Origin: Bacteroidales bacterium
GTDB taxonomy: Bacteria; Bacteroidota; Bacteroidia; Bacteroidales; Bacteroidaceae
NCBI GenBank assembly: GCA_015060835.1
Contig: SUXT01000002.1
Location: 1-64,000, forward strand
Direction of reading: 5' to 3'
Length of the DNA: 64,000 nucleotides
Part shown: positions 1 through 45,667 of the stretch, piece by piece
Numbering within the stretch: position 1 is the stretch's first letter
Layout of the letters: each line of letters begins with the position of its first letter
Notes under the pieces: model-generated
What the model saw: only the letters and a program-made list of their open reading frames with translations
The model's database searches: none
What the model was told of the DNA's origin: nothing
Program-made: the position numbers and the translations under genes

Positions 1-240
1 TCAATGATTGGAACTCCCTCGCCCTGCTAAACCTCGCAAGCTCGGCACTCCTTTGGAAAGCTAAAGCTTTCGTCGTCGCAAACATTGCTTATTACGCAAT
101 GTCCCTCTTCAAGAGGGAGAATGTCGTACGTTATTAATTTCCAGAGATTTACATTCCTCCTCTTGAAGAGGAGGTGGATTCAACAGCGTTAGCGGTTGAA
201 GACGGAGGAGTTCAAAACATAAGCAGAATAAAAATTTACC
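1..240. repeat. Hairpin-chain repeat, family A, locus I
   Basis: Non-coding. Consecutive hairpins can be read directly: GAAAGC/GCTTTC (56-71, loop taaa), ACATTGC/GCAATGT (82-102), CCCTCTT/AAGAGGG (103-117), CCTCCTCTT/AAGAGGAGG (156-174) and TTCAAC/GTTGAA (179-200). They are followed by the constant word GACGGAGGAGTTC (201-213). Related chains lie at 718-775, 37980-38172, 44872-45057 and 45241-45470, with altered but still paired stems. The tail at 214-245 also occurs on both sides of the MITE-like element at 45071-45620. The repeat probably continues to the left of the window. No function is assigned. Confidence 0.75.
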
Positions 241-257
241 GGGCACCAATAAAAACT

Positions 258-680: not shown

Positions 681-717
681 TGAGTTTTTCTCTTTGTTAT
701 TCAGTATGTTACTATAA

Positions 718-775
718 CTCCTCCTCTTGAAGAGGAGGTGGATTCAAAAACTCGTTTTTGAAGACGGAGGAGTTC
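718..775. repeat. Hairpin-chain repeat, family A, locus II
   Basis: CCTCCTCTT/AAGAGGAGG (720-738) is followed by TTCAAAAAC/GTTTTTGAA (743-762) and the constant word GACGGAGGAGTTC (763-775). The order is as in locus I at 156-213, but the second stem has a different, still perfectly paired sequence. It runs directly into the family B direct repeat. Confidence 0.7.
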
Positions 776-1040
776 GAATGTTTTGCTTGTGTATTCAGTC
801 AAACTCCCTCCTCCGTTCGGATACTCCCTGCCCTTAATGCCCTGAAAGGGCAAAACTGTATAGCATAGTCCGTAAGGGCTATGTAAATGCACAACAAACA
901 TACAGCCCTGAAGGGGCGAAACAATAATAACAGCTGTTCATAATTTCGCTCTTACAGGGCTGAGGCTGTATATTCCTATATCCGTAGGCCTCACAGCCTA
1001 CGCTATATAATGTTACCCCTCCGGGGCATTTCTCTATTCC
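776..1040. repeat. Left long direct repeat (family B) beside the MG2-Sel1 gene
   Basis: Runs from GAATGTTTTGCTTGTG to TTTCTCTATTCC. It matches 5123-5342 in the same orientation over almost its whole length and in the same module order: GCCCT/AGGGC (839-851), the CATAGTCCGTAAGGGCTATG module, GTAGGC/GCCTAC (984-1001), then CCCC-tcc-GGGG. This copy carries about 45 extra bases (near 884-930), including another GCCC-tgaag-GGGC hairpin. Similarity fades after position 1070. Confidence 0.8.
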
Positions 1041-5122: not shown

Positions 5123-5342
5123 GAATGTTTTGCTTGTGCGTTCAGTCAAACTCCCTCCCCCGTTCGGGTACTCCCTGCTCTTAAAGCCCTGAAAGGGCGA
5201 AACTGTATAGCATAGTCCGTAAGGGCTATGTTAATTGTTCATAATTTCGCCCCTCCGGGGCTGCGACTGTATGTTCTTGTATCCGTAGGCCTCACAGCCT
5301 ACGCTATATAATGTTGCCCCTGCCGGGGCATTTCTCTATTCC
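5123..5342. repeat. Right long direct repeat (family B) beside the MG2-Sel1 gene
   Basis: Second copy of the 776-1040 repeat in the same orientation, with the same sequence of modules: GCCCT/AGGGC near 5187, the CATAGTCCGTAAGGGCTATG module, GCCCC-tcc-GGGGC near 5251, GTAGGC/GCCTAC (5285-5302) and TGCCCC-tgcc-GGGGCA near 5314. It lacks the 45-base insertion of the left copy. The rest of 5081-5390 holds no gene that I can support. Confidence 0.8.
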
Positions 5343-37909: not shown

Positions 37910-38275
37910 ATGATTATGCGATATTATACCTAAAAGAATAGTTTTAACTCTTTAAACCATTGAATTTTAATCAATAAAACTCTCCCTCTTGGATAAGAGG
38001 GAGTACCCGAAGGGGGAGGGAGTTCGAATGAAGATACAAGCAAAAAGTTTCAAACTCCTCCGTCTTCAAACGCTTTTGCGGTTGAATAGACCTCGCAAGC
38101 TCGGCACTCCTTTAGGGAGCTAAAGCTCCCGTCGTCGCAAACATTGCTTATTACGCAATGTCCTCTTATCCAAGAGGAGGAGTTTATATAAATTATTGAA
38201 GGATCGAGTGTCCAATATCGAATTAACGTTAATTTCCTACAACAGTTCAATTAGGTAATATATTTGATAATCATT
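37910..38275. mobile_element. MITE-like element, copy 1
   Basis: Non-coding, 366 bp. Ends ATGATTATGCGATATTATAC and the inverse of TTAGGTAATATATTTGATAA form about 24-bp imperfect terminal inverted repeats (19 of 24 match). TTAAGGAAA stands directly on both sides (37901-37909 and 38276-38284), a target-site duplication. Inside is a family A hairpin chain: CCCTCTT/AAGAGGG near 37983, TTCAAACGC/GCGGTTGAA (38065-38086), GGGAGC/GCTCCC (38115-38130) and ACATTGC/GCAATGT (38141-38161). No transposase is present. Beyond the right flank (38288-38335) is another copy of the CTCTCCCTCTTGG module. The rest of 37843-38372 has no gene. Confidence 0.75.
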
Positions 38276-38372
38276 TTAAGGAAATACTCTCCCTCTTGGC
38301 TAAGATGGAGTGCCCGCAGGGCGAGGGAGTTCGAATTATTGTATAGCAATTTTTAGGTATATTGACAGATAT

Positions 38373-44796: not shown

Positions 44797-44871
44797 AGTG
44801 AGTTGAGCTTTCTGATGTTTATTTCTGGATATTGGTGTCCGATAAACGTATTCAAACAGTTTCTAAATATT

Positions 44872-45057
44872 CCGTCGTCGCAAGCAACGCTACATTCCGC
44901 GTTGCCCCCCCCTTAAGAGGGATAGCTTTTTTAAAGTTTCTTATTTAAAAGAGATTAGCAAAGGTGTAAAAGCTAAAAGATGTGTCCAAAGATTAGCTTA
45001 TCCAAGAGGGAGAGTTGTTTACCTTGTTTTTGAAGACGGAGGAGTTCAAAACATAAG
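44872..45057. repeat. Hairpin-chain repeat, family A, locus V (degenerate)
   Basis: CCGTCGTCGCAA is followed by GCAACGC/GCGTTGC (44884-44905). This replaces the ACATTGC/GCAATGT stem of other copies but is still fully paired. CCAAGAGGGAG and GAAGACGGAGGAGTTC (45032-45047) follow. The tail GTTCAAAACATAAGC matches 210-224 and is interrupted by the element starting at 45071. The region 44797-45667 has no gene that I can support. Confidence 0.65.
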
Positions 45058-45070
45058 CATAATATAAATT

Positions 45071-45620
45071 ATGATTATGCGATATTATACCTAAAAAGTA
45101 CATCCCCATCCTTCAATGGATAAAAAACTATTCTAAAAAGTTCCTGCCCTTTAAGCTAATCTTTGGACACATTTATTTTAAATCAATATATGCTATGCTT
45201 TTAAATATCAGCAAAAAAGCTTATTAAAAGAGCTCCTGCCCTTAAAGGGGACATTGCGTAATAAGCAATGTTTGCGACGACGGGAACTTTAGTTCCCCAA
45301 AGTACCGAATTGCGGCGCCTCAAAATGAATAGAAAATAACAAAAAAGAACATTGAATATGCTTAACGAAAAACTCTATAGCACAACGGTTTAGCATTTTG
45401 TTATATAGAAGGAGTGCCGAGCTTTGCGAGGCCAATCAAAAAACTTCGTTTTTTGAAGACGGAGGGGTTTTCCTCGCGTAGTACGGTTTATTGCAATACG
45501 ATAGGTTAAGAACCCCCTCCGAACTTAGAAAAAGTTCTCGTCCCCCTTAAAGAGGGACAACTTTTTAAGTTACTAATTCCAACAACATTACACTTTAGGT
45601 AATATGATTTGATAATCATT
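45071..45620. mobile_element. MITE-like element, copy 2
   Basis: Non-coding, 550 bp. Left end ATGATTATGCGATATTATAC is identical to copy 1 over more than 24 bases. Right end TTAGGTAATATGATTTGATA matches the right end of copy 1 with one extra base. The hairpin chain inside is inverted relative to copy 1: ACATTGC/GCAATGT (45251-45271), GGGAAC/GTTCCC (45282-45297), TCAAAAAAC/GTTTTTTGA (45436-45456), then GAAGACGGAGG. About 110 additional bases split the chain near 45302-45410. It interrupts a family A tail whose uninterrupted form is at 198-260. Confidence 0.7.
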
Positions 45621-45667
45621 AAAAATTTACCGGACACAAATAATACACAATAAAGCTATCAACAACA

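Follow-up and report, generated by a model that had tools for sequence, protein, structure and literature searches.

Few repeats are commoner in bacteria than REP palindromes, whose known enzyme partner is the HUH transposase RAYT; for REPs of the CTCC/GGAG type, we know of no partner enzyme. In the window, which is the whole stretch of 64,000 nucleotides analysed here, chains of hairpins lie between the genes, and we compared them with the closest described systems. As in REP/REPIN–RAYT systems (PMC3733652, PMC6006769, PMC3116915), the repeats are short palindromes present in high copy number in intergenic DNA and arranged in inverted doublets, with one or two repeat-flanked nuclease genes per genome and many repeats that carry no gene. 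The system works like REP/REPIN–RAYT and yet lacks two of its defining marks, the tag and the HUH partner. By reading, units a and b have no GTAG tag (CGTC is found within unit b and within the core, and not in unit a), the genome has no Y1_Tnp, and the RAYT genes of the genus are not accompanied by these repeats. The associated gene instead encodes DUF559, of the PD-(D/E)XK type, and the branched units can take up further hairpin modules nested within them. MITEs are similar in that the 270-bp copies are gene-less, end in 17-bp terminal inverted repeats and are flanked by 9-bp target duplications, but here the MITE is just one layer, present in this genome and in the sister G021. EDxHD/Vsr-like homing endonucleases (I-Bth0305I, 3r3p) and the endonuclease-like 3hrl resemble the predicted fold of DUF559, and the in-frame insertion of DUF559 into conserved genes recalls homing; however, no intron or intein was seen at DUF559, and REP palindromes delimit the gene. 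Finally, the chain core recalls IS elements whose insertion sites are REPs (PMC1525189) in that it enters one fixed site at the foot of the REP hairpin, whereas the core is gene-less, is itself a hairpin pair and also occurs outside REPs. The chains are probably REP/REPIN-like mobile, branched palindromic DNA in which DUF559, a small and little-studied putative nuclease, takes the place of RAYT.

The chains are nested mobile repeats composed of REP-like units, a core and, in many copies, a MITE of ~270 bp. The original prediction had placed chains of shared modules at 1–213, 718–775, 37980–38172, 44872–45057 and 45241–45470. The stems and linkers are found there, although 718–775 is a REP unit only, with no core, and the chain at 45241–45470 is present in inverted orientation with an additional insert of ~110 nt. 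The TTCAAACGC/GCGGTTGAA stem, which had been listed as paired, pairs except for one A·G mismatch. A covariance model of the core gives four matches in the window (E 3e-26 to 5e-15). Position 1 is the contig end, and thus the first element is truncated. The features are the following.

1–251, plus strand: copy of the ~270-bp MITE that has lost its left end at the contig edge; its right terminal inverted repeat, TTTACCGGGCACCAATA, occupies 235–251.
12–119, minus strand: REP unit a (AACTCCCTCGCCC .. CTCTTCAAGAGGGAG) with the chain inserted at the hairpin foot; empty form in L022 and L034.
47–104, plus strand: chain core by the covariance model, ACTCCTTTG – hairpin a (56–71) – GTCGTCGCAA (72–81) – hairpin b (82–102) – CC.
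154–213, plus strand: REP unit b, ATTCCTCCTCTTGAAGAGGAGGTGGATTCAA-tip-TTGAAGACGGAGGAGTTC.
716–776, plus strand: REP unit b, chain-free; an inverted REP a-like unit begins at ~801 and makes this a REPIN-like doublet.
37979–38027, plus strand: simple form of REP unit a, opening an inverted doublet.
38053–38183, minus strand: REP unit b, carrying an inserted chain and completing the doublet begun at 37979.
38106–38163, plus strand: chain core by the covariance model, stems GGGAGC/GCTCCC and ACATTGC/GCAATGT.
38286–38336, plus strand: REP unit a, simple form.
44830–44846, minus strand: terminal inverted repeat (TATTGGTGTCCGATAAA on the plus strand), left end of a composite element.
44856–44907, plus strand: diverged chain core by the covariance model, stem b GCAACGC/GCGTTGC.
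45030–45049, plus strand: the 3′ portion of a REP unit b (TTGAAGACGGAGGAGTTC).
45249–45306, minus strand: chain core by the covariance model, stems GGGAAC/GTTCCC and ACATTGC/GCAATGT.
45435–45560, plus strand: third REP variant (tip stem CAAAAAACTTCGTTTTTTG, GACGGAGGGGTT .. GAACCCCCTCC .. CTCGTCCCCCTTAAAGAGGGAC), with 88% identity to the repeat adjoining DUF559 in the sister genome.
45626–45642, plus strand: terminal inverted repeat TTTACCGGACACAAATA, closing the composite element on the right.

Two further repeats were seen in the window. An identical 26-mer, ATGATTATGCGATATTATACCTAAAA, adjoins two chains (37910–37935 and 45071–45096) and is possibly a further module. A second dispersed repeat (GCCCTGAAAGGGCGAAAC) is found at 472–502, 827–857, 893–923 and 5174–5230; one of its copies matches Rfam Acido-Lenti-1, and what Rfam lists here as an RNA may be a DNA repeat of the REP type.

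The three layers differ in their architecture and in their sites. First, the REP unit of ~60 nt has an outer CTCCYTC/GAGGGAG stem around a C-rich hairpin and a hairpin with a variable tip. Unit b has the form AACTCCTCCTCTTgaAGAGGAGGTGGATTCAA-tip-TTGAAGACGGAGGAGTT, and unit a, in reverse reading, is CTCCCTCTTgaAGAGGGAGTGCCCgcaGGGCGAGGGAGTT. The C-rich hairpin has 299 matches in this genome compared with 16 for the control. Inverted doublets of REP units are common on reading of the loci of this genome, and REPIN-like doublets able to fold as one hairpin are present at 716–~835, at 37979–38183 and in the MITE interior. Second, the core site is constant in both unit types and lies between the REP inner hairpins (...ACTCC–core–CC TCTT... 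compared with the empty ...CTCC TCTT...), so that the whole can still fold as one branched cruciform. The core occupies the same place in very different REP sequences of other species (L175, L181, L182 and L197). It occurs in both orientations and nested within other palindromes, and it contains nested inserts of its own, a ~110-nt CTATATAACA..GGTACTT unit that is tandem in L019. Lastly, the MITE surrounds a REP doublet in many copies, and both REP units and cores occur outside it as well. The MITE ends TATTNNTGTCCGGTAAA/TTTACCGGACANNAATA give 121 + 105 = 226 genome matches with at most two mismatches compared with 3 for the control, and the copies are flanked by 9-bp target duplications such as AAATTTTAT, ATTAATTTA and AATTTAAAC. 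Terminal inverted repeats, target duplication and absence of a gene coincide in the 270-bp layer only. In the sister G021, 18 MITE matches are mostly full length, and in other congeners there are short matches to REP parts only. The MITE ends and target duplications indicate that these copies were additionally spread by an IS-type transposase. An IS4-type transposase was rejected as the mover, since PF01609 (DDE_Tnp_1) is absent from this genome.

The repeat has spread between the genes of this ruminant-gut bacterium and its relatives. The genome copies were collected, as originally proposed, with a covariance model. Trained on copies from this genome and its congeners, and covering the core from ACTCCTTTG through hairpin a, GTCGTCGCAA and hairpin b to CC, it detected at least 126 cores in this genome, 126 being the number scored. 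The core is present in 40 of 44 congeneric genomes, usually with 1–27 copies per genome and with 61 in the sister G021, and none was found in 197 other genomes of the same order at E 1e-4 with stricter filters. Among congeners, the copy number varies from near zero to hundreds for the C-rich hairpins and from 0 to >100 for the cores. At 1199–1558 of L194, a core follows each of two tandem tRNA copies, and the tRNA 3′ end TTCCCGTAGGCGCTACA recurs after the core, resembling an insertion that restores the 3′ end. Cores in L186, L187, L188 and L195 lie near the 3′ ends of 5S rRNA, which in L188 and L195 are Rfam calls, and the motif GTGGGAGAGTAG is repeated beside the core.

The first lead to a partner was a REP match in genome G004 that adjoined a DUF559 gene. 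All DUF559 genes of the genus were fetched, and they are present in 24 of 44 genomes, with one or two in each. The stand-alone genes (~120–150 aa) lie mostly between REP units of the same architecture in lineage-specific variants. A strict C-rich hairpin pattern occurs within 400 nt of 15 of the 20 stand-alone genes, on both sides in 11, compared with 1 of 16 control RAYT/HNH loci (Fisher 4e-5), and this pattern scores zero for several DUF559 loci (e.g. L067 and L077) with imperfect units on reading. In the sister species G021, a Bacteroidaceae MAG from water-buffalo cecum, the DUF559 gene (L077, JAFYLO010000077.1) is bracketed by the window's own repeats with 75–95% identity: 88% to 45450–45578, 95% to 44907–44997, 92% to 45191–45251, 86% to 718–774 and 81% to 155–212. 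Cores share a locus with DUF559 in L067, L076, L085 and L089. In addition, the congeneric genomes with stand-alone DUF559 contain a median of 25 C-rich hairpins above control compared with 2 in those without it (p 6e-5). This genome has the most repeats of all, though neither the profile nor the sister protein finds a stand-alone DUF559 in its assembly, which is 86% complete; MAG contigs tend to end at such repeats, and a weak DUF559 match lies inside a 606-aa protein. Within the genus, the DUF559 protein and its flanking REP co-evolve weakly (Mantel rho 0.18, p 0.012), and significance is lost once orthologous sites are removed.

The protein matches the DUF559 profile (PF04480) with E 2e-25 to 2e-32 and, more weakly, the MTES_1575 restriction-nuclease family of Pfam. 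The residues conserved in the alignment are E26, D55, E66-L-D68-G69 and H72. For the predicted model (pLDDT 84), Foldseek ranks 3hrl first (E 4e-7), followed by the I-Bth0305I catalytic domain 3r3p (E 4e-5) and then, more weakly, Vsr; a DUF559 protein is also treated as Vsr-like in a Caulobacter paper (PMC12907096). In the limited set of DUF559 literature searched, titles and abstracts do not link DUF559 to REPs, and the DUF559 article examined does not mention palindromes.

Among the genomes searched, the core is limited to the genus, whereas pairs of DUF559 and REP occur beyond it. We fetched 80 DUF559 relatives from many phyla, which are the best matches of one scan and thus not a random sample of DUF559, and we compared the 60 full-length loci outside rumen Bacteroidaceae with control positions. 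The same repeat is present in both 400-nt flanks of 35 of these 60 loci and at none of 120 pseudo-gene positions within the loci (Fisher 2e-21), and a C-rich hairpin adjoins 48 of the 60 genes compared with 3 of 60 at a distance of >1 kb. The shared repeats are mostly of one REP build, CCACCCC – hairpin – CCCCTCCTTnnnAAGGAGGGG, which is found in Bacteroidota, Nitrospirota, Desulfobacterota, Planctomycetes, Acidobacteria, Cyanobacteria and Patescibacteria. Cyanobacterial repeats of the GGGGGGATTAAGGGGGG type were also seen on both sides of DUF559 genes (L151, L171 and L120). The gene is also found, together with REP repeats, inside coding sequence. In three congeners (L061, L062 and L063), REP-bounded DUF559 lies in frame inside a wecB-like UDP-GlcNAc 2-epimerase gene, the ORF still being open and the epimerase domain being split into two stretches with DUF559 between them, and in L128, L130 and L137, DUF559 and a translated REP are in frame inside Eco57I-type methylase genes. 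Since these cassettes interrupt wecB and methylase genes, the cassette inserts. L079 likely has the same in-frame wecB insertion.

This association fits DUF559 moving the REPs, or DUF559 being carried by or attracted to them; in our favoured reading, DUF559 may help to move the repeats. More tentatively, and with somewhat less than even confidence, we propose a second REP-mobilizing system independent of RAYT, in which DUF559 PD-(D/E)XK nucleases would be cognate to widespread branched C-rich REPs (CCACCCC-hairpin-CCCCTCCTT..AAGGAGGGG type) in the seven phyla listed above, and in which the chains of the window, with their nested modules, would be the most elaborate form. The best-surviving alternative, which we consider unlikely, is that the REPs and MITEs are non-autonomous leftovers, dispersed in the distant past by a now-lost RAYT or IS, and that DUF559 is a passenger which landed in REP-rich DNA. 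A genome rich in repeats without stand-alone DUF559 agrees with such an origin, as do the IS-type transposase activity recorded in the MITE layer and the presence of RAYTs in the genus. RAYT was nevertheless rejected as the partner, because Y1_Tnp is absent from this genome and the five RAYT loci of the genus are without these repeats, two fully examined loci carrying a different flanking repeat; furthermore, a passenger would not be expected to recreate the pairing of gene and repeat over many phyla. The genus RAYT genes of the YIHNNP type (L059 1200–2160 and L060 1020–2300) are flanked by repeats of their own, of the CGGATATTTATCCGC and GCATCTGTGATGC types, and positions 541–680 of the window resemble the repeats flanking these genes.

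The stems of the chains co-vary far more than expected by chance, as originally predicted. With 11 cores aligned in MAFFT, 95.1% of cells are paired compared with 76.3% after shuffling, and none of 500 shuffles matches the score; 10 of 13 pairs have changed on both sides, with 26 double-change cells and no one-sided change. When 40 distinct copies are aligned by fitting them to the model, the corresponding values are 97.4%, 11 of 13 pairs and 110 double changes. Shifting the pairing partners by 1–3 columns abolishes the signal. Stem c, the REP tip, also co-varies, since its arms pair at 0.885 within a copy and at 0.637 when swapped between copies (maximum of 2000 shuffles, 0.788), and its variable positions comprise 59 Watson–Crick pairs, 2 G-T pairs and 7 mismatches. 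Paired changes in the core and tip stems thus bear out the claim that the fold has been kept. In structured RNAs, covariation normally passes through many G-U intermediates. Here, G-U pairs are almost absent (0 of 136 paired cells in the 11 cores and 2 of 479 in the 40 copies), a pattern that points to palindromic DNA and away from RNA.

The original prediction had left open a structured RNA or a protein-recognized DNA hairpin, and the DNA hairpin fits much better, given the near absence of G-U, the occurrence in both orientations, the sites inside palindromes, and the terminal inverted repeats with target duplications. A structured non-coding or cis-acting RNA, for example a 3′-end element with a fold under selection, would account for the strong covariation with constant linkers, for the position of most copies downstream of genes with an enrichment of convergent pairs (15 convergent, 9 tandem and 4 divergent, compared with 6, 29 and 6 for the gene pairs of the window) and for the cores directly after 5S rRNA or tRNA genes. 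It is nonetheless improbable, considering also the mutual nesting, the range from 0 to >100 copies between congeners and the lack of any Rfam family at gathering score in the chain loci. Below that threshold, 44800–45650 gives weak matches only; mir-613 and SSRC8_2 are far below their gathering scores and were taken as chance. Very improbable is a host function as bidirectional terminators or mRNA-stabilizing 3′ ends with incidental mobility, for although the hairpins are strong, GC-rich and enriched between convergent genes, convergent gaps simply tolerate REP insertion better, the hairpins show on reading no general downstream T-tract, copy number is not stable among congeners, and REP-bounded cassettes also lie inside coding genes.

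For the REP/REPIN-like reading, we propose the following route. The repeats would act as folded DNA, either single-stranded or as a cruciform. DUF559 would recognize the folded REP and nick or cut it at the hairpins, and repair or annealing between copies would then spread REPs, whether or not the gene goes with them, in the way that RAYT spreads classical REPs. The stem arms may change together as the palindrome is re-templated from its own other arm, or recognition may require perfect pairing.

The near-zero level of G-U in the stems gives covariation screens a simple sequence criterion for distinguishing hairpins of DNA from structured RNAs. Since cultured carriers are numerous (Hymenobacter, Pedobacter, Pontibacter and Nostoc among them), the pairing of DUF559 with REPs can be tested directly. 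In summary, a consistent pairing with a 120-aa nuclease would provide both a candidate engine for these repeats and a candidate function for DUF559.
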